Shown in pieces: positions 3,290-29,472 of a stretch of DNA of 29,472 nt. Made by a program: the position numbers and the translations under genes. Position 1 is the first letter of the stretch, and every line of letters starts with the position of its first letter. The stretch spans positions 1 through 29,472 of the IMG/VR virus record IMGVR_UViG_3300044675_005440; one strand, 5' to 3'. The notes under the pieces are model-generated. The model saw only the letters and a list, made by a program, of their open reading frames with translations, made no database searches and had not been told where the DNA came from. Origin of the DNA: a virus.

Positions 3290-3297
3290 CATAAATA
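3290..3297 (+). promoter_or_regulatory. T4-type late promoter box (CATAAATA)
   Basis: The octamer CATAAATA matches the T4 late consensus TATAAATA at 7 of 8 positions. It lies in the 60-base gap between the gp25-like and gp6-like genes. Late transcripts in T4 start about 5-6 bases after the box, which would leave a leader of roughly 20 bases containing the AAGG ribosome binding site at 3312-3315. No computed background frequency is available, so this rests on match and position. Confidence 0.6.
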
Positions 3298-15700: not shown

Positions 15701-18700
15701 CGCTGGCAACACAGTACGGGTAAACAACATGGATGTGATTGTGCCCGATGCATGGAACATTCTAAATACCTATGCCAAGAATACTGTGGTATACAATCTA
15801 AGTGGTAGCACATATACAATCTATGCTTCCATACAATCAGTACCAGTAAGCACAGCAATCACTAATACAGCATACTGGCAACCAGTAACAACTACCACAG
15901 TAGCAGCAAGCATAAGTGTTAGGTCTCTAGCGGCACAGATCAACGTTGCTGTGCCTAATGTAAGTGCTGTGGTTAGCACCACCGGCTACTTGACAGTATC
16001 AGTTAAAAACAACAATGCTGCACCAGAATTCAACAAACTACAACTTGCTCCGGGTAGTATTGGTACTGCATTTGCCACATTGAACTTCGACACGTTTGTT
16101 CATACTCAAGTTATTCTTAGTCCGTATCCAGTAGAATTGGCTGGATTTGGTGCAACTATCAGCATTGATGATTCGGCAACCGCACTGGCAGTGGGAACAC
16201 CAAACGGCACACTGTACTTGATTACAATATTCGACGATGGTACCACTGACTTTGATGTGGGCAGTACTATCTTTTTTAGCACAGTAATTCAAAGTGGTGC
16301 AGTGTACACTTATGATTATTTGTCTAGTTCAAGTCCAAGTGTTGTCAACCCCGGTAACTTTGCATTTGGACAACAGATTTCCAACAGTGAAGTCAAAGAA
16401 TACGACACATTTGGCATTGCATTGAATTACACTTCGGGCGTGTTGGTAGTAGGTGCGCCATACAACGATGTTGAAGATAGCACAGCAGCATTTGGACGAG
16501 TGTTTGTATTTGAAAATACTGACCGTAGTCCAGCCTGGACAGTATTGCGTGAACAACTGCCAGTGGTTGATATTCGACTGTTAAATTCTGTGTTCACATA
16601 CGATAGAATTACTAGTGCAACCACTCAATTCTACGATTTCTTTGATCCTTTACAAGGCAAGATACTGGGTGCAGCTCGGCAGAATATAGATTATATTTCG
16701 GGCATTGATCCAGCCAACTACAATGTTGGTCCTACTAGCATCAACGGAGCAACCTGGACAGCAGAGCATGTAGGACAAGTATGGTGGGATATCAGCAGTG
16801 TCAGATTTATTGATCCTAACCAAGATGACATTGTTTACGCTAGTCGTCGCTGGGGACAAATATTCCCAGGATCAACAGTTGATGTGTATCAGTGGATAGT
16901 AAGTGATGTGGCACCTGCTGCATATGCTGGCCCAGGCACGCCACAAAACATACTGAGCTATAGTTTAAGCAGTCGTCTTGGACGCGATGGCATTTTTGCC
17001 ACGGAATATTATTTCTGGGTACGCGGAATCACAAGTACAGCTACTCAGCAAGGCAAAACACTCAGCGTGGCCACAGTGGCACAGTACATCAGCAATCCCC
17101 GCGGGTCAGGCATTAGCTATGTTGCTCCAATTAACGCCAGTACTATTGCACTATACAATGCAGGCGACTATATTGAAGCATTTGACACAGTGATCAACAT
17201 TGAGTTTGATCGAGAGTACACAACTGACAATGTTCACGTTGAGTATGAGCTGATTGGTCAAGGCAAAGCAGACGCATTCTTGAGCGACAACTTGTATCGT
17301 AAACTGCAAGATAGTTTCTGCGGAGTTGATACATTTGGTAATTCAGTTCCTGATCCAAATCTAAGCATTGCAGAGCGTTACGGTGTTCAATTCCGTCCAC
17401 GACAAAGCATGTTCGCAGATCGATTTGCTGCACTCAAGAATTACTTGACTCGTGCCAATGATGTACTGGCAATGTATCCCATCAGCGAAAGTCGTAGTTT
17501 TAACTTGTTGAACTCTGCCGAGCCTGAACCATCTGCAAACTCAGGTTCCTGGAATCTGCGTGTGGCTAACTTGGAAATTTTGGGATTCCAAAATATCAAT
17601 ACAGTTGCACTGGGATACAAGTATCTTGTGGTCAGCGACAGTGACAACCGCGGCCTGTGGACCATTTATACAGTTCAAGCAAATGAACAATCGCCGGGCA
17701 CACGTATACTAGTACTAACAGGCGTGCAAGGATACAATACTGCCGATTACTGGAGTTACATCAACTGGTATCGTCCAGGATACAATTCCAGTAGTAAAGT
17801 TGTTGCTGAAGTGGCCAACATTGCTGCATTGGATGTGTTAAATGTATCAGTTGGCAGCAGTGCTAGAATTACTGCAAACAGCCAAGGTAAATTTGAAATT
17901 TACTTGTTGGAAGATACTGGATGGAGTCGTGTTGGCCTTGAAGATGGCACAATTGAATTCAGCGCTGAATTGTGGGATTATGCAATTGGACGGTTTGGAT
18001 TTGATATTGAAGTTTTTGACGCACAGTATTATGACCAAGAGCCCGTGATTGAAACTCGTAAAATTATTCAAGCAATCAATGAAGAATTGTTTGTGGATGA
18101 CTTGGTGCTGGAACGAAACCGCGCATTGACACTGATGTTCAATTTTGTGCTGAGCGAATTTACTGCGCCTGAGTGGCTGGTTAAAACTTCCTTGATCGAT
18201 GTTGACCATAGAATTCGCGACCTTGCACCGTACCAAAACTATCGTCGTGACAACCAAGAGTTTGTGCTGGATTACATTCAAGAAGTCAAACCATACCATG
18301 TGCAAATTCGTGAATTCAATTTGCGATACAACGGTTTTGACGATTTTCTTGGCACACTAACTGACTTTGATTTGCCTGCATACTATGATACCAGTCTAGT
18401 AATTCCGCAATACACCAGCCCTGTGTTGTTGCCTTATGACCACGGAACAGCTCAAATTAGCAACTCTCTTAGTGATGTACCAGCGTCTAGCACAGTATGG
18501 ACCAACTTCCCGTACAATCAATGGTACAACAATTATTTGCTAACAGTAACTTCAGTCGAAATGATTGCTGGACGGTTTGGTACTGGGTACACAGAACCAC
18601 CACAAGTTATTATTACTGGTGACGCTGAAATATCAGCAGAAGCAGAAGCAATAATCAACAGCCTTGGACAAGTTGTGGCAGTAACAGTTACCAATCCAGG

Positions 18701-21659
18701 ATCAGGTTACAGAACTACTCCTACTGTGACTTTTGATGGTGGCAACGGCTCGGGTGCTCAAGCAGTGGTTCGTGCTGAAAACACTATGATTCGTAGCTTT
18801 ACTACTACCATCAAGTTTGATCGTTGTCAGTATGTGACCAGCATCAATGAATGGAGCTCTACTGCCACATACCAAACTGGACAAATGGTACGTTATGATG
18901 ACCGAGTTTGGATGGCAGTGAGTGATGATTCTACACCGGTTGTTGGACCCACATTTGATCTTGCCAACTGGGAAGAAGTTGATCCAGCTACCTTAAGTGG
19001 CGTGGATCGTACCATGGGATTGTATGTGCCTGGCGTTAATCAGCCTGGACTTGAATTGCCATTACTGATTGACGGAGTTGATTATCCCGGTGTGCAAGTA
19101 TATGGTGACTACTTCTTGGGCAACTTGGCCAACACTGACGCTGTGTTTGAAAGTGAGTTCACTGACCCTACTCTAGGCGAAAGAGCCACCAGCGTCAACA
19201 TTGATGGTGGCCAGTTTGTGGGCATCTACGAAGGACATGCACCAGAAGAATTGGTCAACGGTGCAGAGTATGATACCTTGGACATGCGAGTATACACTCG
19301 TCCAGGCAGTGATTGGCAACTAGATGGCCACGGATTTGAAATAGCAAATACTCGATATACCTATGATCCAACAATCACTGATACCTACAGTTGGACCAAT
19401 TTGTTAGAACACCCGGTGCAGGTTCTGGTCAGCAATCAGACCACTGGTCGAGATCTTGTGGAAGACATTGATTACACAGTAAACTGGGTAGATCAAACCA
19501 TCACTGTGGTTGACAATGTGGCCAACAATGATATCATCAACATTGCTGTCTACGAACTTGGTGGCGGCGTCCAGTTGTTCCGTGGCAATTACACAGGCAC
19601 TGATGCAAGTGATTCAGTTGTGATACCGGTAAGTGCTGATGAAATACAAACTGTGGCAGTGTTCCGCAATAGTGCAAATGTTCCAGGAATAACGTGGGAA
19701 CCTTATATTGACTCTGTGGCCTGGAGTTTGTTTGACAGTTATGAAAAACTTGATGTAGTAAACAACAGCGGCAATTATTATCGTGCTTTGCAAGCGGTGC
19801 CAGTTGGTACTGACATCACCGCAGTTGCTTATTGGGAATTATTTGTTCCGTCTACTGAAAGTATTGTGTTTTTCAATACAACCTTTGCCGCTATTGACGG
19901 TGTTGCATTAGTAGCATTTGGTATTTTGAACCCAGCAATCAGTGCTGGTGTGTTAGAACTAGGGCAAACTTATAGAATTAACACTGTGGGAACCACTAAC
20001 TTTATCACAGTTGGCGCCGCCGTAAACACAGTAGGAACAGAATTTACCGCAACTGGTACCGCAACAGGAACAGGCACTGCTACCATTGCCTACAGCTGGA
20101 GCACTCCTCAAGTCAACACATTTGTTGCTGATGCTGATATTGTGTCTAGTCGCACACTGAACTTGGACATATACACTGGAGGAACCAATCCTGCCAATAT
20201 GGTGGTGACCAAGAACGGTCTGCGCCTGCGTCCCGCAGATGGCGTTGAATGGATCAGCGACGGAAGCACTACGAATTTTGATCTTCCCACACGCGGTGGT
20301 TTTACTCAACAGATCATCAATGCACCAACTGACATCAAGGTATGGGTTGACGGTATTTTACAAGTACAAAGTGTGGGCCTGGTCACTGGATCATACAGTG
20401 TTACTATCTGGTCTGGAGCCGAAAATCGTCAGGTGATATTTGTAGATTCCCCTGCGGTAGGCTCAACAATTTTGATTGCAGTAAACACTGTGGCCGAGTA
20501 TGATGTGGCTGCCAACACAATTGAGATTATAACTCCTCCCAACATTGGAGACGTCTTCCAAGTTATTGGTTGGAACGACACTCGTCAGCAAAATGCTCTT
20601 ACACTGGTGTTCCAAGGACCTGTGACCACTGGTATCACCGTAGTTGAACCGTACGACAGCACTGACTTTGATTCTGGCACACTATCTGGTGATCCTGGCA
20701 GTTTTGACTACAGTCAAGGAACAGCTATACCCAACAATGACTTTTGGCTACGCCGTGCTGATGTAGACCCCAGCAGACTTTGGGTCACACTGGATGGGTT
20801 CAGGCTGTTCGAAGGTGAAGATTATGTGGTTGAGGGAGAGTACTTGATACTAGCTTCTGGAGCAATTGGTTCTGCTGACATCATGGTAATTACTGAATTC
20901 ACCAATTCTGTTGTGCCAGAAGCTATGGCATTCCGCATATACCAAGACATGCGTGGAGTACAGGCCACATATAGAATTACCAGCGCTACTACAACTGCGG
21001 TATCACAGGCTGTATCTGCGACTGATGATATTATCTATGTTGATGATGCGTCTGTATTGAGCGCACCTGATCTACCAAATGGTATATTTGGTGTTATCAC
21101 CATTGGTGGTGAACGCATTATGTATCGTGTACGAGACACTGCACTGAACTTTGTGAGCAGTTTGTTGCGTGGCACCGCTGGTTCGGGTGCAGCAGAACAT
21201 GTGGTGGGAACACCAGTCTACGACATCAGCCGCGGCAACTTGTTGTTGTCAGAATATCAAGACTATGTTGAAAGTGATACACTAATTGGCGACGGATCAA
21301 GCACATTGTTCTATGCAACTACGGTATCTATTGATACCACTAACGAAGACAGCACATTTGATGTGCGTAGTTTAGAAGTATACGTTGGCGGCGCACGTCA
21401 GTACGCATACTCTGACACTACAGTAGCAATTGAACCAGGGCAATATCGCTGGAACGTGGCAGAATTTACTCCACTAGCAATTGAATTTGTAACACAAGAT
21501 CAGTATCCTGAATTAACTGCACCGCCAGCGGGTGTTGAAGTAACCATGCTGGTTCGTAAAGGGGTCACTTGGTACGCACCCGGCGTAGGAACCCCTAGTG
21601 ACGGCATAGCACTGCAAGAAACCAACACTCCGGCCGCAAGGTTCTTACGAGGCTTATAA
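6783..21659 (+). CDS. Giant modular baseplate wedge/adhesion protein in gp7 position
   Basis: This uninterrupted 4958-residue ORF begins at an ATG overlapping the gp6-like stop, with GGAG at 6772-6775 spaced 7 bases away. The N-terminus (VDFLPQIFQTETNKQFLAAT, then FKKTQGYIGRTVGPG) and the C-terminal SDGIALQETNTPAARFLRGL are conserved in the large structural proteins after gp6 in aquatic T4-like phages. T4 gp7 itself has 1032 residues. Other core-like blocks are at residues ~713-793 (LNPWTRSNRWFHIDVI), ~1447-1510 (PQYTPWEMLGITEQPSWWEL), ~1660-1740 and ~3818-3870 (VLDYIQEVKPYHVQIREF). Between them are adhesion-type modules: a cupredoxin-like domain (~211-297), seven FG-GAP blades (~2370-3263), four CBM5/12-like motifs (~1961, 2990, 4022, 4313), GYxxPPxV repeats (~3931-4000), a Gly/Thr module (~4390-4440) and repeated beta-sandwich units. 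I infer a wedge scaffold carrying receptor-binding domains. The gp7 assignment rests on position and recalled family sequence. Confidence 0.85.
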   Translation: MATTRSVDFLPQIFQTETNKQFLAATLDQLIQEPKFKKTQGYIGRTVGPGVNPNDKYVVEPSTTRADYQLEPGVISLEPDTSIIKNAITYPGINDAVQFNGGNDTRPDRLYASEYYTWDPFVNFDTFVNFSQYFWLPNGPAAVDVAAVGVPTTDNFVVNRENGVYTFSGLAGNNPVIEVLRGGSYTFQVAQNTKETVNYRVSNVGISAYQIDFQSNPTLTLARGNTYVFNLNLNGNYPFWIKTSPTTGVGDAYNSGVSRNGALIGLVTFTVPQDAPDTLYYASQTQSNMQGQLAIVDGQAGTGPGFWIQAAPGIAGVVPSTPNISSRDVLGVVNNGEDLGQITFNVPLKDAQKFYYDLTNFGTVDLISNLKFNQINNVSVEEFIAAYGGIDGITNLNGRTLVFTEPVTDAEGGGWQRTTLYDPLPRDSTFNAQPGSFDTVFFDQTTDVDPADRYQLWQISYVTVGGYSYMSLAKTATVPNLNKFRILYGSTYSSTQWYKNNTGVFEQIPLLTAIQDTLYYQDGTDPEIFGRIKLLEQSENSTIDVDEILGQPNYTSPNGVTFTNGLKVKFIGDVIPASYASGTFNLLCTAAEFGTNYITTASTASLYVGEQITFSVPTIGGIAPGTYYVQSISANGIQFTISAQQYGTPVVLSPGAANVTAIVTSNLEYYVSNVGTAIELLLVTDYITPETYVVDNNVTTINAEPETLDYLTIDRASKDLNPWTRSNRWFHIDVINDTAVYNNTTAAFDNAYRAKRPIIQFRPGVRLYNMGTDGKQPVDIIDFDETDAFSNIQGTTSYSVDGYNLIDGTRIIFAADEDIAVKNKIYTVSFINPDTVSPLISQPIINLTLASDGEVLADQSTVCLRGDTLTGLTFWFDGADWLEAQQKTGVQQAPLFNVYDTTGASFGDQTKYQSSTFAGSKLFSYAVGDTGILDPVLQFPLQYLNINNVGDIVFENNLYKDTFLYVLDNASVTSNISSGSVREYVSRVVFDRKIGWQTAATQSQIRQQFKFSYAASTLKLDVRVDDAAANVPPVKLYVGSVFQDPSTYSYTRTNDSTTITLSQTYVIGDIIEVAVLSSQTSQVAFYQVPINLQNNPLNGNSDSFTLGTIRTHYESICENLNTLVGVINGANNTRDLGNIVPYGLTILQQSAPLTLAGYFMRSPSFNVFGALNYNDREYNKFKYQLLDAVTKQNIEFNTTAQILDTAIEDTTLGRVESQPFYWSDMLPSGAVYTTTNYTVSLTTTDTFDTVQVYDYTKSNYLGLDVYLNDVILTRGQDYVVATDGPRITVLATLTLGDSLVLQEYSSTYGSFVPNTPTKMGLYAAYVPGILTEQTSTGQTQVIQGHDGSITPIFGDLRDDVLLEFETRIYNNLKLDGNPVPMTVYDVLPGQFRDTGFSYAEINSVFNEDFLNYVGGNKLDYKTQQYSATNEFTWNYSSAQNKLNNENLLGAWRGINRYFYDTEQPQYTPWEMLGITEQPSWWELTYGPAPYTSGNTVLWDDLELGLVNDPIAPYIKPEFARPGLSQVIPVDSEGSLLSPFNSVVGTYNQTQFQKSWATGDGSPVEASWWNSSSYPFAVMQLLAVTQPAKFFALFADRDLYRYSEEFGQYLYNDRYRLDANGIEVYGNGVSKASYINWIVDYNRQTGVDSTTELAADLKNLDVRLCYRMASFSDKQYIKIYTEKSSPNSTNTALLIPDESYDLLLYKNQPFDRAVYSAVVVQKVTNGYSVFGYGSSLPYFNILESKATGLLQTISSGGITVRVPTFYTNNVAQVPYGFVFANETSVCDFLLSYGKLLEKEGLTFTNQSNGYILTWEQMCQEFLYWSQQGWDTDALLNLNPLAFKLSVTREQAIVDSIKVQTMDNILLDQNRRELNTRNLNIVRIGNTFSCEPLTDQTLSFIDLKFTTYEHMIVLNNQSVFGDLIYAPITGARQSRLNLVCVNTTDWTGQVDAPGFILNQNNVEEWTGLRTYAKGEIVKYKNVYWSALTIVQPSVNFNFNDWTQSDYAQIELGLLPNLANKADQLTNTYNINSANIENDTDLLSYGLIGFRPRQYMAALNLDDVSQLNVYRQFLGSKGTILSAELFTGANLGKETADYSIYENWAVQRAVYGANANRSFFELRLNRALLNSNPSLVQVVLPEQQSQADQTILLSDVWRQSYKLTSPDILPTTTEPITDAALPTAGYVNLDDVDITVFDINDLANVNANIDEIGVGTSIWVAKVNNYDWNIYRAQAVPGAIQHVCDNLDNTSRVIFSQQHGLSVGDTLIIKFFDIEVNGVYEVVGVSDLNTVNIVFQFAGDRVVANGTGLGFTLQTMRVAQASDVINLPYANDILPGAKVWVDNNGSNKWQVIEKQEVFTDVAQISPLLLDATEHFGSSVAQATNRLALLVGSPRYNHAGGSNTGAVYVYVKNYGDQYAPVSPVADADGILSLAITGARGFGNSADFGNQEWAVAGASASWGPNGAGEANSGYTAVIYRDPALGQPGVNPYAVWQLLTQPGTTTSTNPGLGEFGYSVAMSQDERWMYIGAPGLNSVHAYGRVDWEKQVVKALGDDSTVSYDIAQTIQINDDSQLTVTVDGQVQLLGTDYTVTLDSGMYTTVVFTVPPAAGNLVNITRTYVKQLDAQTYFDVVQSATSGAGVGAEFTVVRVRNEVGQPGSVLGTVGTTTLGTGYVNGNTVTIAASSFGGTANIVLTITSVDGVGGITGFNIAYTPVGIASVFSLNEVFFTVDNIYSFSITVNGVMYRPNIDYTYNVGTSDLTFVTIPAAGTVIIANAQGYFEYVNTLTDAGLIAGDRFGQSVSCSTDGRQVMIGAPDKTVAGEVEAGAVYVFDRDVQRFIAAGTTNTFTLLGTVTGPVSVIQNNVFLINQDDGVVDAANTFVWDGANSVTINGTVSVGDVIEIETNQFSLIQTITQVTVAEFSNFGESVDLCAYNCSLYVGEPQSSIQVYKGGVVERAVNQSRIYGTSTSGTANPVLTAGNTVRVNNMDVIVPDAWNILNTYAKNTVVYNLSGSTYTIYASIQSVPVSTAITNTAYWQPVTTTTVAASISVRSLAAQINVAVPNVSAVVSTTGYLTVSVKNNNAAPEFNKLQLAPGSIGTAFATLNFDTFVHTQVILSPYPVELAGFGATISIDDSATALAVGTPNGTLYLITIFDDGTTDFDVGSTIFFSTVIQSGAVYTYDYLSSSSPSVVNPGNFAFGQQISNSEVKEYDTFGIALNYTSGVLVVGAPYNDVEDSTAAFGRVFVFENTDRSPAWTVLREQLPVVDIRLLNSVFTYDRITSATTQFYDFFDPLQGKILGAARQNIDYISGIDPANYNVGPTSINGATWTAEHVGQVWWDISSVRFIDPNQDDIVYASRRWGQIFPGSTVDVYQWIVSDVAPAAYAGPGTPQNILSYSLSSRLGRDGIFATEYYFWVRGITSTATQQGKTLSVATVAQYISNPRGSGISYVAPINASTIALYNAGDYIEAFDTVINIEFDREYTTDNVHVEYELIGQGKADAFLSDNLYRKLQDSFCGVDTFGNSVPDPNLSIAERYGVQFRPRQSMFADRFAALKNYLTRANDVLAMYPISESRSFNLLNSAEPEPSANSGSWNLRVANLEILGFQNINTVALGYKYLVVSDSDNRGLWTIYTVQANEQSPGTRILVLTGVQGYNTADYWSYINWYRPGYNSSSKVVAEVANIAALDVLNVSVGSSARITANSQGKFEIYLLEDTGWSRVGLEDGTIEFSAELWDYAIGRFGFDIEVFDAQYYDQEPVIETRKIIQAINEELFVDDLVLERNRALTLMFNFVLSEFTAPEWLVKTSLIDVDHRIRDLAPYQNYRRDNQEFVLDYIQEVKPYHVQIREFNLRYNGFDDFLGTLTDFDLPAYYDTSLVIPQYTSPVLLPYDHGTAQISNSLSDVPASSTVWTNFPYNQWYNNYLLTVTSVEMIAGRFGTGYTEPPQVIITGDAEISAEAEAIINSLGQVVAVTVTNPGSGYRTTPTVTFDGGNGSGAQAVVRAENTMIRSFTTTIKFDRCQYVTSINEWSSTATYQTGQMVRYDDRVWMAVSDDSTPVVGPTFDLANWEEVDPATLSGVDRTMGLYVPGVNQPGLELPLLIDGVDYPGVQVYGDYFLGNLANTDAVFESEFTDPTLGERATSVNIDGGQFVGIYEGHAPEELVNGAEYDTLDMRVYTRPGSDWQLDGHGFEIANTRYTYDPTITDTYSWTNLLEHPVQVLVSNQTTGRDLVEDIDYTVNWVDQTITVVDNVANNDIINIAVYELGGGVQLFRGNYTGTDASDSVVIPVSADEIQTVAVFRNSANVPGITWEPYIDSVAWSLFDSYEKLDVVNNSGNYYRALQAVPVGTDITAVAYWELFVPSTESIVFFNTTFAAIDGVALVAFGILNPAISAGVLELGQTYRINTVGTTNFITVGAAVNTVGTEFTATGTATGTGTATIAYSWSTPQVNTFVADADIVSSRTLNLDIYTGGTNPANMVVTKNGLRLRPADGVEWISDGSTTNFDLPTRGGFTQQIINAPTDIKVWVDGILQVQSVGLVTGSYSVTIWSGAENRQVIFVDSPAVGSTILIAVNTVAEYDVAANTIEIITPPNIGDVFQVIGWNDTRQQNALTLVFQGPVTTGITVVEPYDSTDFDSGTLSGDPGSFDYSQGTAIPNNDFWLRRADVDPSRLWVTLDGFRLFEGEDYVVEGEYLILASGAIGSADIMVITEFTNSVVPEAMAFRIYQDMRGVQATYRITSATTTAVSQAVSATDDIIYVDDASVLSAPDLPNGIFGVITIGGERIMYRVRDTALNFVSSLLRGTAGSGAAEHVVGTPVYDISRGNLLLSEYQDYVESDTLIGDGSSTLFYATTVSIDTTNEDSTFDVRSLEVYVGGARQYAYSDTTVAIEPGQYRWNVAEFTPLAIEFVTQDQYPELTAPPAGVEVTMLVRKGVTWYAPGVGTPSDGIALQETNTPAARFLRGL
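7413..7674 (+). other. Cupredoxin-like module in the giant protein, copper ligands absent
   Basis: Residues ~211-297 of the giant protein follow the layout of small cupredoxin-like domains common in marine phage proteins: PTLTLARGNTYVFNL, then YPFWIKT, then VTFTVPQDAPDTLYY and a closing SNMQGQLAI. The usual ligand pattern is His before PFWIKT, Cys and His after YY, and Met. Here these positions read Tyr237, Ser283, Gln286 and Met289, so only Met is kept. A structural or adhesive role is more likely than electron transfer. Confidence 0.65.
13890..16571 (+). repeat. Seven FG-GAP-type blades forming a putative split beta-propeller
   Basis: Within the giant protein, seven segments share an FG-x-S/A-x opening and a V/I-G-x-P turn, most followed by a GAVYVY-like strand. 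They start near residues 2370 (FGSSVA, LVGSPR), 2434 (FGNSAD, VAGASA), 2508 (FGYSVA, YIGAPG), 2791 (FGQSVS, MIGAPD), 2918 (FGESVD, YVGEPQ), 3120 (FGATIS, AVGTPN) and 3208 (FGIALN, VVGAPY). Seven is the number needed for one integrin-alpha-like propeller. Spacing is uneven (64 to 283 residues), so extra domains are inserted between blades. Confidence 0.7.
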
Positions 21660-21673
21660 AGCAAGGTAAATAA

Positions 21674-21832
21674 ATGACCATGTCAAACACACAGTCAAAT
21701 CAGGCCACACCAGCAGCAAAACCTGCTGCTACGGCTCGCAAACCAAACGAACAAGGGACCATTTCGGTACAAGCTCACATGAGAATCTATGATCCAAAAA
21801 CGCAAAAAACTTATGTGGAGGGACGAGCATGA
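21674..21832 (+). CDS. Small 52-residue protein sharing a motif with the next gene
   Basis: This short gene lies between the giant gene and the 201-residue protein. AAGG at 21663-21666 precedes ATG 21674 by 7 bases; a second ATG at 21680 has worse spacing. Residues 1-30 are Ala/Pro/Lys/Asn-rich and probably disordered. Residues ~31-52 read GTISVQAHMRIYDPKTQKTY followed by VEGRA, a beta-hairpin-like motif. The next protein has a matching stretch near its N-terminus (GFVKISDPVTGEVLVDKKNA). The TGA at 21830-21832 overlaps the downstream ATG (ATGA), so the two are translationally coupled. I recognise no function. The location suggests a minor tail or baseplate protein, or a partner of the next gene product. 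Confidence 0.7.
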   Translation: MTMSNTQSNQATPAAKPAATARKPNEQGTISVQAHMRIYDPKTQKTYVEGRA

Positions 21833-22434
21833 TCACCCCAGGACTGTGTAAAATTGAAGGTTTTGTCAAAATTTCAGATCCTGTTACAGGCGAAGTTTTG
21901 GTAGATAAGAAAAACGCTATTCACTACGAAAACATCTCCGTAGCCATGGCGCAAACTCTGAGTGATCGTAACCTGGGTTACATCTATGAAATGGCGTTTG
22001 GCAACGGCGGCAGTTCGGTAGATCCTACTGGTGTTATTACCTATTTGCCCCCTAATACCACAGGCCAGAATGCTGATCTGTACAACGAAACTTATGCCAA
22101 GGTTGTCAACGACAATTCAGCAGCTGACACAGACCCAGAAAACAACAAAATGACCGTGCTGCACACTTCGGGCAACGTTTACACAGACATTCTAGTGCAA
22201 TGTTTACTGGACTACGGCGAGCCGCCAGAGCAGCAGGCATTTGATAACAGTACCAATTTCAACGGCGAATTTGTGTTTGACGAACTGGGACTAAAATCCT
22301 GGAACGGAAGTGCAACTGATCTGCGTCTAATTACTCACGTTATCTTTCACCCCGTACAAAAGAGCTTGAATCGTCAAATTCAAATTGACTACACTCTGCG
22401 TATACAGACATTAAGCAACATCAATGCTGTATAA
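21829..22434 (+). CDS. Putative tail/baseplate structural protein, 201 residues
   Basis: This 201-residue protein of unknown function resembles uncharacterised structural-region proteins of aquatic T4-like phages. The start is well supported by GGAGGGA at 21817-21823, just upstream of ATG 21829, which overlaps the previous stop. The N-terminus carries an IxDPxTGEVLVDKKNAIHYEN block, followed by a Gly/Asn-rich region (MAFGNGGSSVDPTGVITYLP) and a C-terminal beta-rich part (ITHVIFHPVQKSLNRQIQID). No signal peptide, membrane segment or catalytic motif is visible. It stands where gp8 would be in T4 order, but I see no convincing gp8 signature and do not assign that name. The TAA at 22432-22434 lies inside the TATAAATA box of the following gene. 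Confidence 0.8.
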   Translation: MITPGLCKIEGFVKISDPVTGEVLVDKKNAIHYENISVAMAQTLSDRNLGYIYEMAFGNGGSSVDPTGVITYLPPNTTGQNADLYNETYAKVVNDNSAADTDPENNKMTVLHTSGNVYTDILVQCLLDYGEPPEQQAFDNSTNFNGEFVFDELGLKSWNGSATDLRLITHVIFHPVQKSLNRQIQIDYTLRIQTLSNINAV

Positions 22435-22469: not shown

Positions 22470-24257
22470 ATGGCATATACAATTAATCTTACTGACGGCA
22501 CAGTATTTGCAACCATTTCTGACGGCACAGTAAACACTGCTAGTAGCATGATACTGGTAGGTAAAAACTATGCCGGTTACGGTGAATTTCTCGACGAGAA
22601 CTTTATCCACTTGCTGGAAAACGGTTCAAACACCACTGCACCCAGCGCTCCACTAACAGGACAATTGTGGTGGGACAAAACCAATAACTTGCTAAAAGTC
22701 TACAACGGCACAATATTCAAGACTATTAGCGCTGCTACTTCTAGTGCATCTGCACCAACATCAAACGTGCAAGGCGACCTGTGGTACGACACAGTAAATC
22801 AGCAAGTCAAAGTATATACTGGCACAGGTTTTATTGTGGTTGGCCCTGCGTTTACATCCGCTGAAGGCACAGCTGGCGCCATTCCTGAAACTATCAATGA
22901 CAACGGCGGCACACCACACTTTGTGACCAGTTTGTATGTGAACAACACTCGTGTTGCTATTGTGAGCAAAGACGCTAACTTTACACCAGCAGCCCCCACA
23001 GTAACCACATTCCCTGTAATTTATACTGGTATTACACTATCTAACACTGGTGGTAGTGGCCCGGTGTTTGCAGGTACTGCTACTAATGCTGCATTGTTGG
23101 ACAACTTGGACTCTACTGACTTCATGAGAGCGACGGCCAACACAGCTACCACTGGTACTGTGCGTGTGCAGAACAATGTGGGTTTGTTTGTTGGTGCAGC
23201 CAACGTATTCAACGTAAACACCACCTCAACAGATGCCAACGTCAAAAGCGACATCAGTAACGGTAATTTGGTGATTCAGGCCAACGTAGGCGGAACCACT
23301 TACAATGTGGCTCGTGCTCTGGGCTCAAATGGCACATTTGCAATTGCCAATGCTGCCACAGTGGGTACCACCCTTGGTGTAACTGGCAACGTAACTGGGG
23401 GCAACTTGGTTACTGGTGCACAGGTTAGTGCCACAGGCAACGTAACTGGGGGCAATATTATCACTGCTGCCCTAGTCCAAGGTGCAACAGTCAGCGCCCT
23501 GGCTAACGTTATTGCTGGCAATGTCAACACAGCTGGTCGTATCACTGCCACTGGCAATATCATCAGTGCTGCCAACGTTACAGGTTCATACTTGTTTGGT
23601 AATGGTTCACAACTCACAGGCTTGAGTCTGGGTGTGAGCGTTACCCAATTCCAAAATGGTACAACAGCGGGCCAGGTTGGTACTTCGGGTGGCAACATCA
23701 ACTTCAACGTGGGAGGTGTAGCCAATGTGGTTGTGATTGACACAAGCACTGTGTATGCTAACGTTGTTAACGTGAACAATATAACCACTCCGGGCAATGC
23801 CGTTGGTAATATTGGTAGTGTAAGTAACCCATTTAACCGTGTGTTTGCTCAATCTACCACAGCAGCATACGCTGACGTTGCAGAACGTTTTGCAGCCGAT
23901 GCTGTATACTCAGCAGGAACTGTGGTTGAACTAGGCGGAGAAATGGAAATTACTCGTGCTAGAGATGAACTCAGTGAAAATGTGTTTGGCGTTATCAGCA
24001 CACGGGCTGCTTACTTGATGAATGGCATGGCTGGTGATGACAACACACACCCGCCGGTGGCTATGACTGGACGAGTTCCTGTTCAAGTGATTGGACGTGT
24101 GGCCAAAGGTGACCGCTTGGTATCAGCTGGTAATGGTGTTGCTAGAGCGGCACAGCCTGGCGAAGCCACTGCATTCAACGTATTGGGTCGTGCATTGGCA
24201 CACAAACGAACTCCTGAGCTAGGGGAAGTTGAAGCCATTGTGACCATTAGCAAATAA
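22470..24257 (+). CDS. Tail-fibre-like virion protein, 595 residues
   Basis: The start follows AAGG at 22458-22461 with 8-base spacing, under a perfect late promoter box. The N-terminal ~120 residues include NYAGYGEFLDENFIHLLEN and two copies of a G-x-LWWD/LWYD, then VY(N/T)G motif (GQLWWDKTN, GDLWYDTVN), which I recognise from fibre proteins of aquatic T4-like phages. Residues ~300-385 are a repetitive Gly/Asn/Thr/Val-rich shaft (TGNVTGGN units) ending in a FGNGSQLTGL motif typical of trimeric fibres. The C-terminal ~130 residues (AYADVAERFAADAVYSAGTV, VFGVISTRAAYLMN, GRVPVQVIGRVAKGD) form a beta-rich terminal domain common at the ends of phage and bacterial surface fibres. I infer a trimeric host-contact or whisker-like fibre. 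The specific T4 counterpart is unclear. Confidence 0.82.
   Translation: MAYTINLTDGTVFATISDGTVNTASSMILVGKNYAGYGEFLDENFIHLLENGSNTTAPSAPLTGQLWWDKTNNLLKVYNGTIFKTISAATSSASAPTSNVQGDLWYDTVNQQVKVYTGTGFIVVGPAFTSAEGTAGAIPETINDNGGTPHFVTSLYVNNTRVAIVSKDANFTPAAPTVTTFPVIYTGITLSNTGGSGPVFAGTATNAALLDNLDSTDFMRATANTATTGTVRVQNNVGLFVGAANVFNVNTTSTDANVKSDISNGNLVIQANVGGTTYNVARALGSNGTFAIANAATVGTTLGVTGNVTGGNLVTGAQVSATGNVTGGNIITAALVQGATVSALANVIAGNVNTAGRITATGNIISAANVTGSYLFGNGSQLTGLSLGVSVTQFQNGTTAGQVGTSGGNINFNVGGVANVVVIDTSTVYANVVNVNNITTPGNAVGNIGSVSNPFNRVFAQSTTAAYADVAERFAADAVYSAGTVVELGGEMEITRARDELSENVFGVISTRAAYLMNGMAGDDNTHPPVAMTGRVPVQVIGRVAKGDRLVSAGNGVARAAQPGEATAFNVLGRALAHKRTPELGEVEAIVTISK
23385..23455 (+). repeat. Tandem 51-bp repeat units in the fibre shaft
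   Basis: A perfect 20-base direct repeat beginning ggcaacgt lies at 23385-23404 and again at 23436-23455, a period of 51 bases or 17 codons. At protein level each unit reads TGNVTGGN plus nine variable residues. Weaker copies continue to about 23600 (ITATGNIISAANVTGSY). This pattern fits a beta-helical or trimeric shaft that grows or shrinks by unit duplication. Confidence 0.8.
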
Positions 24258-24269
24258 TTAGGATAAAAA

Positions 24270-25238
24270 ATGACTTATTCATCAGGAGGCTTGATCCAGG
24301 CCACAGACTACAATGGTTTTGCCAGTACCACTGCAAGCGCCAACGTCAATGATCTTTGGGCCACCGGTGCTACTGATAAAGGTTGGGGACAAACAGCACT
24401 AAGCACTGTGAGTGCAGCCGGAGTTGTTACTGCAACCAACTGGGCAAGTCTTGTTAATACTATCAGCAGCATGGGCAGCCAAACTGGCACAACTATCACA
24501 GCAAGATCAGCTCCTGTAACTGGCAACCTGATTCAGATTCTTGCTGCTCTCAACACAGACCTAACCAACATAACTACCAACCGACTCAACGCTGTGGCCA
24601 ACGGCACACAGTATACAGCCTGGACTGGCACCAACTCAAAGACTGCTGCTACTTCGGGAGCAACTTGGAGCTTTACATTTACCAACACAGTGACATTTGC
24701 CAGTGCAGCAGCAGCACGTTACTTTTTCAACGGTGGGGGTCGCATCAAGCTGGATGTGAGCAAAACAGCCACTGGCGACCTGGGCGACCCAGAATGGAAT
24801 GACTTGGCCAATACCTTGTGTGGCGACATTTTCTTCACGGGTGGCACTGGAACTGCTGTAATTTCAGGCGCATCTTACACAGGCACAACCAAAGTTGGCG
24901 GAACAGGCACACCAAACATATTGCTCACCACCACAGGATTCTATGACCTGACTCCCGGCGGTGCAGCTACCATTATCTACAAGCAGTTTGCTGACACTGT
25001 TCCCTACACCAGCAACTTTATCCAACACAGTGCTGCTCTCAACGCTGCAAGCACCATACTGACATTTACCACATTATGGAGTGCCAGCGACGGCGACGCA
25101 ATTTCGGGTGGCACAGCCTCAACGGGAGCCACTCCTGGAACAGCACCAACCACAATTTGCACCTATTTCCCACCTAGTACAACCTATCTGACTACTGCAA
25201 GTTGGGGAACCCCAACAGTGGCAGCAACCACAGTCTAA
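24270..25238 (+). CDS. Thr/Ala/Ser/Gly-rich putative virion protein, 322 residues
   Basis: AGGA at 24260-24263 precedes ATG 24270 by 6 bases, only 12 bases after the fibre gene. The protein is very rich in Thr, Ala, Ser and Gly and poor in charged residues. It opens with MTYSSGGLIQATDYNGF, which I recognise from uncharacterised structural-type proteins of aquatic phages. The first ~125 residues appear helical and repetitive. Residues ~150-175 (AAARYFFNGGGRIKLDVSKT) match a motif seen in several phage tail-fibre and appendage proteins, followed by a beta-rich C-terminal half. No catalytic motif, signal peptide or membrane helix is visible. It is the last gene before the hairpin terminator, so it closes the late structural block. 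A fibre tip or decoration role is plausible but unproven. Confidence 0.78.
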   Translation: MTYSSGGLIQATDYNGFASTTASANVNDLWATGATDKGWGQTALSTVSAAGVVTATNWASLVNTISSMGSQTGTTITARSAPVTGNLIQILAALNTDLTNITTNRLNAVANGTQYTAWTGTNSKTAATSGATWSFTFTNTVTFASAAAARYFFNGGGRIKLDVSKTATGDLGDPEWNDLANTLCGDIFFTGGTGTAVISGASYTGTTKVGGTGTPNILLTTTGFYDLTPGGAATIIYKQFADTVPYTSNFIQHSAALNAASTILTFTTLWSASDGDAISGGTASTGATPGTAPTTICTYFPPSTTYLTTASWGTPTVAATTV

Positions 25239-25241
25239 CCA

Positions 25242-25261
25242 AAAGGGCCGCAAGGCCCTTT
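25242..25261 (+). terminator. Rho-independent terminator hairpin at end of structural block
   Basis: A perfect 8-bp stem AAAGGGCC/GGCCCTTT encloses a GCAA (GNRA-type) loop, starting three bases after the stop codon at 25238. The downstream sequence is T-rich (ACCTTTGTTACTTTTTCC), though not an uninterrupted T-run. It separates the late virion genes from the following cassette. Confidence 0.85.
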
Positions 25262-25287
25262 ACCTTTGTTACTTTTTCCTGTATACT
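25259..25287 (+). promoter_or_regulatory. Sigma70-like promoter overlapping the terminator
   Basis: The sequence TTTACC at 25259-25264 (4 of 6 to TTGACA) and TATACT at 25282-25287 (5 of 6 to TATAAT) are separated by 17 bases. The -35 box includes the last three bases of the terminator stem. The expected start, about 7 bases after the -10 box, is position 25294, the A of the next start codon. The match is good but not computed against background. Confidence 0.5.
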
Positions 25288-25293
25288 ACTAGC

Positions 25294-25599
25294 ATGGATA
25301 CTGATGCTTTAATTGTTCACTCGCGAGCACGTTTTGATCATGTGACTGCTCGTCGCATACTCAAAGAAAAATACCAAGCACGTATGTTGTTTGCCTACGC
25401 CAGCGGCATGTGGCGTGCCGGTCCTGAACTGCTGACTGTGTTGGCAACATGTCCCGACGAGTCAGCAGTGTTGCTGGATTTGTATGACGCTCCAATCAGA
25501 GTTGATGTTAGAGAACTTGAATTGGCAGCACAACAACGCTGGCAAGAGCAAATGAATGCTTGGCTAGTAGAATACGAAACCAACAGTCAAAAACGATGA
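25294..25599 (+). CDS. Conserved phage protein of unknown function, possibly leaderless, 101 residues
   Basis: This is a small mixed-charge protein (MDTDALIVHSRARFDHVTAR, WRAGPELLTVLATCPD, ending in QQRWQEQMNAWLVEYETN). I recognise similar proteins of about 100 residues in T4-like cyanophage genomes, without known function. No Shine-Dalgarno is visible in the 30 bases before ATG 25294, and the predicted promoter start coincides with that ATG, so translation may be leaderless. No membrane segment or catalytic motif is evident. The C-terminal third looks helical. Its stop TGA (25597-25599) overlaps the next ATG (ATGA), which makes it the first gene of the coupled sugar-transferase/radical SAM cassette. 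It might regulate or assist the cassette; nothing in the sequence decides this. Confidence 0.75.
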   Translation: MDTDALIVHSRARFDHVTARRILKEKYQARMLFAYASGMWRAGPELLTVLATCPDESAVLLDLYDAPIRVDVRELELAAQQRWQEQMNAWLVEYETNSQKR

Positions 25600-26408
25600 C
25601 CACAGGCGCACTTATTTTTGCGTTCAACAATGAACAAATCGACTACCTGGCCATGGCTGCGTGGAGTGCTAAAAACATTCGCAGACATCTTGACATACCA
25701 GTTGCAGTTGTTACAGATGCAGACCCTGCAGACCCTAGACTCAATGGATTTGATCAAGTCGTGCCAGCCACAGCCAAATCTGGTGGAACACGATACTTTG
25801 AAGATTACGCTAGCACAGTGACCTGGCACAATGCTGGCAGGGTCAACGCATATGATCTAACACCCTGGGATCGTACCCTGGTATTGGACGCTGACTATGT
25901 GGTAGCCTGCTCTGATCTCAAAAGAATTTTAGAATACAACACAGACTTTATGTGTCATCGATCGGCCGTCAACTTCAACACTGGGCATCCTTTGAAAGGA
26001 CTCAATGTTTTTGGGCGCCATGACATGCCCATGTGGTGGGCCACAGTAATGGTATTTCGTCGATCAAACACTGCACAATACATATTTGACTGCATGCAGA
26101 TGATACGAAGCAACTGGGAACATTATCGAGCATTGTATGGCATTGACAAAAAGACCTATCGTAATGATTTTGCCCTAAGCATTGCCCTGGGAATTGTAAG
26201 CGGCCACACAGGCAAAGTAGATGAAATACCTTGGCCCTTACTGACTGTGATGCCAGACACAGTGCTGACCAAAATTGCACACCAAACTGATGCATACCGC
26301 ATCACATATTGCGACCCAGACAACCAATCAAAATACATTCAATGGCATACTACAGATTTTCATGCCATGGGCAAACAGCACTTGGAGAACATAATTGCGG
26401 CCCATTGA
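25596..26408 (+). CDS. GT-A-like glycosyltransferase candidate with DxD motif
   Basis: This 270-residue protein starts at ATG 25596, overlapping the previous stop by four bases; an upstream in-frame TTG at 25560 would lie deep inside the previous gene and is less likely. The N-terminus is a Rossmann-like GALIFAFNNEQIDYLAMAAW followed by PVAVVTD, typical of nucleotide-sugar binding. At residues 98-100 is D-A-D in LVLDADYV, the metal/nucleotide-sugar DxD signature of GT-A enzymes such as family 8. Further on are paired Trp residues (MPMWWATVMVFRR) and a NWEHYRALYG block that recurs in the next protein. The fold call is fairly good; donor, acceptor and activity are unknown. No membrane segment is seen, so it is probably cytoplasmic. 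It may modify a phage or host glycan, or a virion protein. Confidence 0.7.
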   Translation: MTTGALIFAFNNEQIDYLAMAAWSAKNIRRHLDIPVAVVTDADPADPRLNGFDQVVPATAKSGGTRYFEDYASTVTWHNAGRVNAYDLTPWDRTLVLDADYVVACSDLKRILEYNTDFMCHRSAVNFNTGHPLKGLNVFGRHDMPMWWATVMVFRRSNTAQYIFDCMQMIRSNWEHYRALYGIDKKTYRNDFALSIALGIVSGHTGKVDEIPWPLLTVMPDTVLTKIAHQTDAYRITYCDPDNQSKYIQWHTTDFHAMGKQHLENIIAAH

Positions 26409-27156
26409 AGAACAAGGTTATGTTGTGGTAGCAGTCAACACAGACACAGTTGACTACGTTCGTTGCGCTGGCATGTTGGTTCAAAGTCTAAAGACACAGC
26501 ATCCTGCTGCAAAAGTGTGTTTAATAACAGATCAACCAGTAGAGGATCCTGTGTTTGATTATGTGCATTTGTTGCCGGCGGTGGCGGAAAATGCCTATGC
26601 CAATGACGCAGCAGTATTTCAGTTAACACCGTTTCGTGAAACAATCAAGCTGGAAGCAGACATGCTGATTGCTAGCCCTATCTCACACTGGTGGGACTTG
26701 TTTAGACACCGTGACGTTGTGATCAGTACAGGATGTAGAAACTGGCACGGCGATGTTAGCACTGCTCGGCACTATCGCCGAGTGTTTGATCAAAATCATT
26801 TGCCTGATGTGTACAACGCCATTACTTACTGGCGACTGAGTGAAACTGCAAAAGAATTCTTTGATCTAGTTCGGGATATATTTGCCAACTGGGAACACGT
26901 TCGCACACTGATAAAGTTTGCACCTGCGGTAGCAGACACTGATCTAGTGTATGCTATGGCTGCACAGATCATAGGCGAACAAAGAGTTACCATGCCTTTT
27001 GTTACATATCCACAAATTGTTCACATGAAACCGCACCACGCAGGCACAACAGATCGTTGGACACACGAATTGACCTGGGAACATGATCCATTGCGTATCA
27101 ATACCGTGGCACAATGGGGTGCATTTCATTATCATATCAAGGAATGGCGACCATGA
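26395..27156 (+). CDS. Second GT-A-like protein, paralogue with ExD in place of DxD
   Basis: This 253-residue protein is related to the preceding one. TTG 26395 is chosen because GGAG at 26384-26387 is 7 bases upstream and no ATG is available near the N-terminus. It overlaps the previous gene by 14 bases. Shared features are an N-terminal [20 protein letters not shown] strand-helix, a VCLITD strand, a DxD-like site and a NWEHVRTL block. The DxD-equivalent reads E87-A88-D89 in IKLEADML, with Glu in place of the first Asp. The final part is His/Trp-rich ([21 protein letters not shown]), which could supply metal or sugar contacts. It is a glycosyltransferase-like protein by fold resemblance. The altered motif may mean changed specificity or a non-catalytic partner of the first protein. 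Confidence 0.65.
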
Positions 27157-27485
27157 CACCTGATGAATTCTGGAGCATACTGCATGCAGTGCCCGAAACA
27201 CAGCCATTAACCTATCGACTGTACCATGACTCAGTTGGGGTTTTGCTATTTTACAGCATGGAGCATTTGCCCGGTAACTACATTGAGATTGATGCTGCAA
27301 CCTACGCTCGTAGCCCCAGTCGTGTGCGTGTGGTAAATGGTGTGTTGACTGAAACAAAATGGCGCACAGTCAACAAACTAACTCCTGCACCCGCAGGCAC
27401 ACACTGTCACCCAACTGACGTGGCTGTGGTAGTTGAATCTGAACCTTATTGTGCCTGGAGCAAAAAAACATATGAAGCAAATTGA
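27153..27485 (+). CDS. Conserved phage protein of unknown function, 110 residues
   Basis: I start this at ATG 27153, which overlaps the previous stop (ATGA) and lies 9 bases after AAGGA at 27139-27143; in-frame ATG 27144 would sit directly on that site. The protein begins [14 protein letters not shown] and contains the block [20 protein letters not shown], followed by VRVVNGVL. I recognise this pattern from small uncharacterised proteins of aquatic T4-like phages. Near the C-terminus is H84-C85-H86-P87-T-D89, a cluster that could bind metal. No signal peptide or membrane helix is seen. Its last 14 bases overlap the next gene. Constant association with the cassette would suggest a partner or regulatory role for the flanking enzymes; this is inference. 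Confidence 0.72.
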
Positions 27486-28398
27486 CATAGCAGACCTAGA
27501 CTGCATTTACTTGAGTTACGATGAACCCAACAAAGAAGAAACCTGGACCAAGATCAAAAACATGGTGCCTTGGGCAGTACGAGTTGATGGTGTAAAAGGT
27601 AGTGATGCTGCACACAAGGCCGCAGCAGAAGCATCTACCACAGAAAGATTTATTCTTGTGGACGGAGACAATATTCCTGACCCCAGCTTTTTTAATCAAA
27701 CGCTTAGTTTTCCCACAGCTGAATATGAACAGGCAGTATTTCGCTGGAGAGCACGTAATCACATCAATGGGCTAATGTATGGCAATGGTGGATTGAGCAG
27801 CTGGACTCGAGAGTTTGTGGCGCAAATGCGTACTCATGAAGCCACAGACGGCAGTGTTGAAACACAGGTTGAATTTTGTTTCAACCCACAGTACTGGCCC
27901 ATGCACGATTGCTACAGCACAACATATCCCAATGGCAGTGCCAGCCAAGCCTGGCGTGCTGGTTTTCGAGAAGGCGTTAAAATGTGTCTGGACCGTGGAC
28001 GCAGACCCAGCACAGAAGAATTTACCGATCGTGTACACAAACGAAATCTAGACAATCTTACCATATGGCACAATGTAGGTGCAGATGTTGACCATGGCAT
28101 GTGGGCCATTGCAGGTTCGCGAATGGGCACTTACATGACCATGCTGACCAATTGGGATCATACGCAGGTGCAAGACTTTGCTGAACTGGATCAGTTGTGG
28201 CTCACAGTAAAAGACAGTGAACCACGCATTGTGGCAAATCGTGTGGGAGTTGATCTAGGCACACAACTGGGCTTGCCCATGAGCATGCTGGAAGCAGAAC
28301 AATCAGCATTCTTCAAACAGCACTATCGCAGCGACTGGCACAACCGTGGAGCAATGGTGCGAGAAATTGACGTTATCCGAGAACGTGAAGGTTGGTAA
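27472..28398 (+). CDS. Third GT-A-like sugar-transferase candidate with DGD motif
   Basis: This is a 308-residue protein. ATG 27472 is chosen over an in-frame ATG at 27433 that would overlap the previous gene by 53 bases; GGAG at 27456-27459 lies 12 bases upstream, rather far. The N-terminus reads [20 protein letters not shown], and after [14 protein letters not shown] comes RFILVDGDN, placing D64-G65-D66-N67 where family 2-like GT-A enzymes carry their metal-binding DxD. A second half with [15 protein letters not shown] and [19 protein letters not shown] is conserved in uncharacterised proteins I recall from cyanophages. It is not obviously paralogous to the two preceding GT-like proteins. 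TAA 28396-28398 overlaps the next ATG by one base. Enzyme class is moderately supported; the substrate is unknown. Confidence 0.68.
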
Positions 28399-29472
28399 TG
28401 ACCAAAGGCGATCAAAGCCATTTTTTAAATGCAGCAGAACAAATGCAGGACAAATTAGGACCTGCACTGTGCCTGGCCAAGTGGAAACAAGTTAGTCTAC
28501 ACTTGCCCACAGGACTCAACAATAGCTGCTATCATCCTCCCCTGCATCGTATCAACATAGAAGATATTGGACGCAATCCGTCAGCACTGCACAATACCGA
28601 GCACAAAAAACAACAACGCAAACTCATGCTGGCAGGCACAAAGCCTGCTGAGTGTCAGTATTGCTGGAACATGGAAGATCAAAACAAACTGAGTGATCGC
28701 CATTATAGATCAGGCGAGCCCTGGGCCGCAGTAGATTTTGAAAAAATAAAAAATAGTCAAGGATCTGAAGATGACATCATTCCCAGTTATGTGGAAGTTA
28801 ATTTCAACAACGCTTGTAATCTCAAGTGTAGTTACTGCTCTCCGCAGTTTAGTTCAAGTTGGCAACAAGAAATGGAACGTGATGGGGCATATCCTACTAT
28901 GGTGCCTCATAACGCTCCTGAGCATTTTGTTGGTGATCGTAAGCCCATCCCTGCCCGGGAATCTAATCCCTATGTAGATGCCTTTTGGGCGTGGTGGCCC
29001 ACGCTGTATCCTGAACTGGAACACTTTCGAATGACCGGCGGCGAACCACTACTGGACCGGAACACCTATAAAGTATTTGATTATGTGTTGGCCAACCCCA
29101 GCGCCAAATTGCATCTAAATGTCACAAGTAACTTTAGTGTAGAGCCCAAGCTGAGTGAAAAGTATTTTAACTATGTGAAACAACTGTGCAACGGTGGCAT
29201 AGAACACTTTATGCAGTATGTTAGTCTGGATTCGGGCGTGCCTGCACAAGCTGAATACATAAGAAATGGAATGGAATTCAGCAGAGTCAAATCAAATGTA
29301 CACAATTATCTAACCAACATTCCCAGCTACAACAGTTTGACATTTATTATCACAATGAACAATCTGTCAGTTACAGGTTTGAAACCTTTGTTGGAATGGA
29401 TATTGCAGCTGAGACAACAACATTCGTCTACATATCAACGGGTATGGTTTGATACTCCTGTGCTGCGTGATC
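28398..29472 (+). CDS. Twitch-domain radical SAM enzyme, 5' part (runs off window)
   Basis: The frame is open from ATG 28398 to the window end (358 codons) with no stop, so the gene continues to the right. AAGG at 28388-28391 is 6 bases upstream and the ATG overlaps the previous stop. C140-x3-C144-x2-C147 in FNNACNLKCSYCSP is the [4Fe-4S] cluster motif of radical SAM enzymes, and M212-T-G-G-E-P217 is the SAM-binding GGE motif. The N-terminal ~130 residues contain extra cysteines (C44 in NNSCYHPP; C86-x2-C89 in ECQYCWNME), as in phage-borne 'twitch' radical SAM proteins whose products are unknown. Such enzymes cut SAM to a 5'-deoxyadenosyl radical to modify peptides, sugars or nucleotides. Coupling to GT-like genes suggests a sugar or glycoprotein substrate, which is inference. 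Confidence 0.9.
   Translation, partial: MTKGDQSHFLNAAEQMQDKLGPALCLAKWKQVSLHLPTGLNNSCYHPPLHRINIEDIGRNPSALHNTEHKKQQRKLMLAGTKPAECQYCWNMEDQNKLSDRHYRSGEPWAAVDFEKIKNSQGSEDDIIPSYVEVNFNNACNLKCSYCSPQFSSSWQQEMERDGAYPTMVPHNAPEHFVGDRKPIPARESNPYVDAFWAWWPTLYPELEHFRMTGGEPLLDRNTYKVFDYVLANPSAKLHLNVTSNFSVEPKLSEKYFNYVKQLCNGGIEHFMQYVSLDSGVPAQAEYIRNGMEFSRVKSNVHNYLTNIPSYNSLTFIITMNNLSVTGLKPLLEWILQLRQQHSSTYQRVWFDTPVLRD

Follow-up and report, generated by a model that had tools for sequence, protein, structure and literature searches.

A fixed-order cassette of GT8-like and N-twitch radical SAM genes behind the fibre genes of T4-like water phages: a probable glycan pathway

At the right-hand end of a contig from an uncultured T4-like water phage, behind the tail fibre genes, six overlapping genes (g1–g6) bring together glycosyltransferase-like proteins and a radical S-adenosylmethionine (SAM) enzyme. 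This raises the question of what such a cassette makes and on what it acts. The contig is the whole of IMG/VR record IMGVR_UViG_3300044675_005440 (29,472 bases, hereafter the window), and a preliminary description of it had likened the cassette to a small pathway that makes and radically alters a glycan or glycopeptide. Our analysis favours a pathway of glycan assembly and radical tailoring, with a glycan as the probable product. That it acts on the host envelope rather than on the phage's own fibres is our tentative first choice, with a chance a little short of even. The cassette and its control region comprise the following features.

25242..25261, + strand: intrinsic terminator after the fibre-region gene fibC, the stem being conserved in relatives with altered sequence
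25259..25287, + strand: predicted sigma70-type promoter TTTACC-N17-TATACT, with the -10 box ending 6 bases before the g1 ATG
25294..25599, + strand: g1, soluble protein of 101 residues, no family; ratio of nonsynonymous to synonymous substitution rates (dN/dS) 0.085
25596..26408, + strand: g2, GT8-like glycosyltransferase of 270 residues, ATG start, called from predicted fold and motifs
26395..27156, + strand: g3, GT8-like glycosyltransferase of 253 residues, TTG start, called from a glycogenin profile match and homology to g2
27153..27485, + strand: g4, soluble protein of 110 residues, no family; dN/dS 0.155
27472..28398, + strand: g5, GT-A-like protein of 308 residues, ATG start, called from predicted fold and an invariant DGD(N)
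28398..>29471, + strand: g6, N-terminal-twitch radical SAM enzyme (NF033640), with the 3' end cut by the contig end

Successive genes overlap by 4, 14, 4, 14 and 1 bases, in agreement with the 1–14 bases first reported, and these overlaps recur among relatives (medians of -4 for g1–g2, -5 for g2–g3 and -14 for g4–g5). All six frames are under strong purifying selection (median dN/dS 0.06–0.16), with g4 as the fastest evolving cassette gene, and g3 orthologues use ATG at the codon where the window has TTG. The two small proteins, g1 and g4, are conserved and soluble; family searches returned single weak matches only, and neither shows an obvious leader/core layout such as precursors of ribosomally synthesised and post-translationally modified peptides have, although either might still be one. 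The most diverged g1 forms share 23–35% identity. Hydropathy analysis found no membrane segment in any protein of the cassette or of the gene array that follows it, which is compatible with enzyme action in the cytoplasm.

Searching IMG/VR with g6 gave 398 confirmed relatives, and the 80 best of these (71–100% identity) were retained. The loci fetched with g6 and those fetched with g2 share contigs, and the order statistics cover one broad lineage. Wherever all six genes are present, the order g1–g6 is invariant (69/69 g6-fetched and 42/42 g2-fetched loci). Loci recruited by fibC alone and having room downstream carry g1–g5 in 65 of 65 cases and g6 in 64 of 65, while g1–g4 are found in 52 of 53 loci fetched with fibA. 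Because co-occurrence and order are this strict, the homologues are not independently scattered, the outcome that the preliminary description had named as counting against it. The arrangement persists in more diverged phages: two marine contigs binned in metagenome-assembled genomes (L154 and L215) have fibre genes followed by g1, g2, g3, a small gene, g5, g6 and further radical SAM genes, their g1 being 28–35% identical. Eight other loci (L131–L138) retain g2-g3-g5, some of them also g6, and the cassette is present on L157 and L161 as well. Bacterial carriage of the cassette was considered for L154 and L215 and rejected: their gene order, fibre genes and then g1–g6, with a VrlC-like end in L215, is that of phage contigs binned into bacterial genomes. 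Among 50,697 deposited phage records, tblastn gave no match for g1, g2, g4, g5 or g6, and for g3 a weak one only, in Synechococcus phage ACG-2014f. The suggested tie to aquatic T4-like phages thus holds for uncultured phages, whereas the deposited records offer this single g3 match.

The model of g2 is of high confidence (AlphaFold, predicted local distance difference test (pLDDT) score 96.6), and its top Foldseek matches are the GT8 or GT8-like enzymes GlyE, glycogenin, UGGT and LARGE1 (E 2e-7 to 7e-6, probability 1.00), GlyE and glycogenin lying closest at about 2e-7. Residues D98 and D100 of the DxD motif, H256 and K260 are invariant. g3 matches the glycogenin profile (E 2.5e-4) and phrog_1903 and is homologous to g2 (hhalign 99.6%); its motif is the variant ExD (E87-A-D89), in which D89 is invariant, as are H210, K212 and H245. 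Fold and the DxD and H...K motifs of g2 are like those of glycogenin and GlyE. However, identity with these enzymes is 12–15%, and Pfam GT8 matches neither g2 nor any of 45 g3 members. g2 and g3 may therefore be said to work like GT8 enzymes, with sugar transfer as the predicted activity, rather than to be filed Pfam members.

Support for g5 is weaker. Its model has a pLDDT of 89.9, and its nearest solved structures are glycosyltransferases (the PBCV-1 capsid enzyme 2p6w at 7e-4, TarP and SunS) at a template modelling score of about 0.3. D64-G-D66 is invariant, and the match to Pfam Glyco_tranf_2_3 reaches 17.3 bits, under the cut-off of 27. Homology of g5 to g2 was rejected (hhalign 2.9%). 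Three DxD-bearing GT-A-like proteins had been described; motifs of this type are present in all three, that of g3 in its variant form, and the GT8-type folds of g2 and g3 stand, while g5 is more weakly supported and separate from them. The best fold matches of g5 overall are two uncharacterised viral proteins of 800–1080 residues. In two relatives (L147, 18338–19900; L148, 3–1835), a protein of more than 1100 residues with Trp/Tyr-rich repeats of about 50 residues (DYSWHPDP..PPYIYVFGNQ...PGATExKYM) ends in a g5-like domain (hmmsearch 1.5e-13); it could be a scaffold or a substrate.

g6 scores 264.7 bits against NF033640 (N_Twi_rSAM, NCBIfam; curated cut-off 170 bits) in the form cut by the contig end, and 312.2 bits as a full-length orthologue. 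This membership makes g6 a radical SAM enzyme with an N-terminal twitch; the twitch recognised earlier is thus correct, with the N-terminus as its place, and the extra cysteines are there. In the near-identical contig L002 (10001–11389), g6 runs to about 462 residues and is followed by another gene. Besides the CxxxCxxC motif (C140/C144/C147), it has four N-terminal cysteines (C25, C44, C86 and C89) of the kind expected for a predicted auxiliary iron–sulfur cluster. None of the seven varies across an alignment of 30 sequences, which includes two of only 20–22% identity. A literature search for twitch domain-containing radical SAM enzymes in phages found none.

The g1–g6 cassette is the front of a larger module that contains four more radical SAM orthogroups (rB–rE), so that the six genes first described are real but an undercount, the module continuing beyond the window. 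In 53 relatives having at least 9.5 kb past g6, the series g6-GTB-rB-rC-rD-rE-p346-CarbT is found in near-fixed order: rB and rC in 53/53, rD and rE in 52/53, p346 in 47, a putative GT-B-like gene (GTB) in 46 and a carbamoyltransferase confirmed by Pfam (CarbT) in 34, some loci ending before it. The GT-B-like label, and those of SGNH-like and sulfotransferase-like genes, are putative readings of sequence motifs, which no Pfam model backs. All of rB–rE, plus two more enzymes of the array, exceed the NF033640 cut-off, and contigs of 320–364 kb hold 12–21 matches to this family apiece, partly scattered. In a tree, each of the five orthogroups, together with its member from marine L154, is set apart by a single branch; support is good for rB, rC, rD and rE and weak for g6 (40), since other g6-type enzymes and bacterial ones intermingle. 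Beyond the array, L147 carries a gene resembling L-arginine:glycine amidinotransferase (15083–16102, - strand, E 3e-13); such a gene lies near the array in 3 of the 53 relatives.

The bacterial relatives of g6 are mostly from Bdellovibrionota. Of the genomes sampled, 20 of the 78 from this phylum and 3 of the 150 from the phylum to which L207, a Beijerinckia record, belongs have genes over the NF033640 cut-off; 14 control genomes had none. L153, a Bacteriovoracaceae chromosome contig, has relatives of all five orthogroups and lacks g1–g5 and fibre genes; judging from the sequences, its array lies between rplU-rpmA-obg and lgt. The radical SAM enzymes can therefore exist as a set apart from transferases and fibres, and a phage fibre is not a necessary substrate for them. 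Besides L153, the Bdellovibrionota contigs L175, L209 and L210 also have N-twitch radical SAM genes in chromosomal arrays, the genome of L175 having about 20 such genes over the family cut-off. A literature search on Bdellovibrio with radical SAM and lipopolysaccharide (LPS) found nothing.

How the cassette is expressed bears on its target. Within the window alone, promoter-like matches are not significant (16 versus 9.8 expected); the promoter and terminator matches gain significance because they are conserved across relatives. Of 86 distinct loci, 83 have a -10 box within the 23 bases that precede g1, compared with 6.7 in shuffles, and 76 of the 86 upstream regions reach folding energies below -10 kcal, the fibC–g1 terminator being conserved in two sequence forms. 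This confirms the earlier reading of a promoter-like site directly after a terminator. The promoter of relatives is TTTACT-N17-TATAAT, and in the marine contigs L154 and L161 the equivalent place is occupied by TTGATT-N17-TATAAT. As the -10 box mostly begins 11–13 bases before the ATG, the transcript would begin at the ATG itself or only a few bases away, giving a near-leaderless message. The late 8-mer is found in none of the 86 g1 upstream regions. In three genomes, gp25 and gp6 have the T4-like late motif ATAAATA in front of them, and on the + strand of the window this motif occurs only twice, at 3291 (just upstream of gp6) and 22431 (just upstream of fibB). From consensus and conservation, we infer that the cassette belongs to the sigma70 (early or middle) class and is insulated from late fibre transcription.

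Combined, these data suggest the following mechanism. Host sigma70 RNA polymerase would start the cassette at its own near-leaderless promoter, with the terminator insulating it from the late fibre genes. The GT8-type pair g2 and g3, together with the GT-A-like g5, would transfer sugars, and g6 and the four further N-twitch enzymes may then act on the sugar or its carrier by successive hydrogen abstractions, with outcomes such as epimerisation, dehydrogenation or deoxygenation. Finishing could fall to the putative GT-B-like enzyme and the carbamoyltransferase, and optionally to the putative SGNH and sulfotransferase-like gene products. The likeliest target would be an envelope glycan of the infected cell (e.g., LPS core or O-chain), whose alteration would block re-adsorption of sister phages, and the second choice the phage's own Ser/Thr-rich fibre. 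Three observations put the envelope before the fibres: the class of the promoter, the occurrence of the five-enzyme set on a chromosome that lacks fibre genes and a weak correlation of g2 and fibC distances (Spearman 0.27, compared with 0.43 for g2–g3 and 0.45 for g2–g5); special co-evolution of the transferases with fibC was looked for and not seen.

Several points weigh against an envelope glycan. The cassette itself contains no lipid-carrier enzyme, flippase or nucleotide-sugar enzyme, and glycogenin, GlyE, the PBCV-1 capsid enzyme and SunS, all fold neighbours of g2 or g5, act on proteins. To our knowledge, no reaction or substrate has been assigned to the N-twitch family NF033640. The promoter calls, as noted, derive from consensus and conservation only. 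Finally, the cassette stands in near-absolute adjacency to three fibre genes, the last of them rich in Ser and Thr, which fits fibre modification equally. The region to the left of the cassette contains the following features.

6783..21659, + strand: VrlC-like giant baseplate/tail protein of 4958 residues, left border of the host recognition region
21674..21832, + strand: small conserved open reading frame of about 50 residues overlapping the fibA start, with a counterpart in marine L215 (1103–1258)
21829..22434, + strand: fibA, conserved structural/fibre-region protein (phrog_11259, E 5e-72), upstream of the cassette in relatives
22470..24257, + strand: fibB, tail-fibre-like protein (phrog_14394, phrog_972)
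24270..25238, + strand: fibC, fibre-region protein, called from composition and linkage to the cassette

Virion glycosylation is the strongest alternative, although we consider it unlikely on balance. Here g2, g3 and g5 would modify Ser/Thr residues of the fibres, fibC above all, and the radical SAM enzymes would remodel the sugars or the peptide, shielding the fibre or tuning receptor binding. Besides the fibA-fibB-fibC linkage, fibC contains 29.5% Ser+Thr against 10–19% in the other measured proteins; the lack of membrane or lipid-carrier enzymes and the protein glycosyltransferases among the fold neighbours agree with such a role, and mycobacteriophages are an established case of virion glycosylation (Freeman 2023, cited in PMC12619734). 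In contrast, the sigma70-type rather than late-type promoter, the terminator between cassette and fibre transcript and the five-enzyme set on a fibre-free chromosome weigh somewhat against action on fibres only, and g2 distances track those of fibC less closely than those of g3 or g5.

It is more doubtful still that the product is a soluble modified metabolite, such as an unusual nucleotide sugar, an amino-sugar or a peptide directed, for example, against host defence, with the GT-like proteins processing nucleotide sugars. The solubility of all transferases and radical SAM enzymes, the occasional amidinotransferase-like gene, which recalls Campylobacter phage clusters, and the absence of a family for g1 and g4 would suit it, but no dehydratase, epimerase or nucleotidyltransferase was recognised in the conserved part of the module, and GT8 enzymes typically move sugars onto macromolecules. 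A DNA hypermodification pathway yielding glycosylated or radically altered bases is very improbable: T4-like phages do have glucosyltransferases acting on DNA, and radical SAM enzymes take part in some base hypermodification pathways, but no match to DNA glucosyltransferase families was found, the fold being GT8 instead, the cassette adjoins fibres rather than a nucleotide module, and the radical SAM set is also chromosomal in bacteria.

Islands of fibre, GT8 and radical SAM genes are already known, as are phage radical SAM clusters (PMC2853527). The pelagimyophage host recognition cluster lies next to VrlC and contains tail fibres, GT8 enzymes and radical SAM cassettes, which its authors read as O-chain modification (PMC7029224, Zaragoza-Solas 2020). 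By analogy, this reading of cassettes in an equivalent position supports glycan tailoring at the host envelope. Both regions belong to T4-like aquatic phages and have VrlC, or here a VrlC-like protein, as left border with fibre and glycosyltransferase genes inside. The right border of the pelagimyophage cluster is gp14, whereas the window ends in g6. Moreover, that region has been described as hypervariable and non-syntenic, while here three fibre genes, g1–g6 and five radical SAM orthogroups keep a fixed order across related contigs (several of them 320–364 kb) and, in part, in marine relatives. The consulted passages of PMC7029224 do not name this gene set, the radical SAM subfamily or the promoter.

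Campylobacter phages CP220 and CPt10, likewise T4-like, encode 11–12 radical SAM proteins, five of them clustered with a glycine amidinotransferase that parallels the L147 gene. The authors took them as metabolic genes and described radical SAM enzymes as highly unusual in phages (PMC2853527). Their enzymes score at most 35 bits against the NF033640 cut-off of 170 and match neither the g5 nor the g3 profile; membership in this family was tried and rejected for them as well as for the enzymes of HTVC008M and ACG-2014f, none being above the cut-off. In ACG-2014f, the g3 homologue (E 6e-14) lies near a tail fibre gene in a sugar operon with GDP-mannose dehydratase, GT11, GT6, GT25 and heptose epimerase. 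This supports, by analogy, the glycan part of our reading only, as ACG-2014f shares g3 with the cassette but has no NF033640 enzyme and no g5 match. In the phages studied here, the NF033640 family is multiplied beside glycosyltransferases and fibres. The literature searched contained no description of the fixed gene set, the five-orthogroup array, the insulated near-leaderless promoter or the link to Bdellovibrionota.

Single phage contigs thus hold at least 12 enzymes of one radical SAM subfamily, with five orthogroups in fixed order behind adhesion genes. What had been a variable island with some radical SAM genes thereby becomes a defined pathway that can be tested, and the uncharacterised NF033640 gains a strong genomic context. 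As a speculation that we think improbable as a whole, a five-step radical SAM pathway (g6 and rB–rE), common to aquatic T4-like phages and predatory Bdellovibrionota, might make a new radically tailored glycan; the phages would couple this pathway to fibre genes and GT8/GT-A enzymes, drive it by a leaderless sigma70 promoter and thereby remodel the infected cell's surface. If a surface glycan is indeed altered, this would be new chemistry in phage–host competition. The radical SAM set also forms a link between phages and predatory bacteria, both attackers of Gram-negative cells.

Some observations concern the neighbouring genes. Upstream in the window are T4-type baseplate genes (hub/lysozyme, gp25 and gp6 wedge proteins). 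The 4958-residue protein is called VrlC-like from its size, its place, phrog_10938 and PMC7029224; its N-terminal 1000 residues match phrog_10938 (virion structural) and phrog_677 (wedge/fibre connector). The C-terminus of the small reading frame at 21674–21832, MRIYDPKTQKTYVEGRA, resembles the fibA N-terminus, VKISDPVTGEVLVDKKNA. L002 is 100% identical to the window across g1–g6 and only 92% in fibA (3432–4034 versus 21829–22434), which suggests a possible recombination boundary within the fibre block. In L148, a 320-kb phage contig, inspection by eye found HldD/HldE-like heptose-pathway genes (15191–17075), a gene for a TctC-like binding protein (11176–12090) and AhpC/AhpD-like genes (17412–18496); of these, the TctC-like gene is a hint of a host among the Betaproteobacteria.

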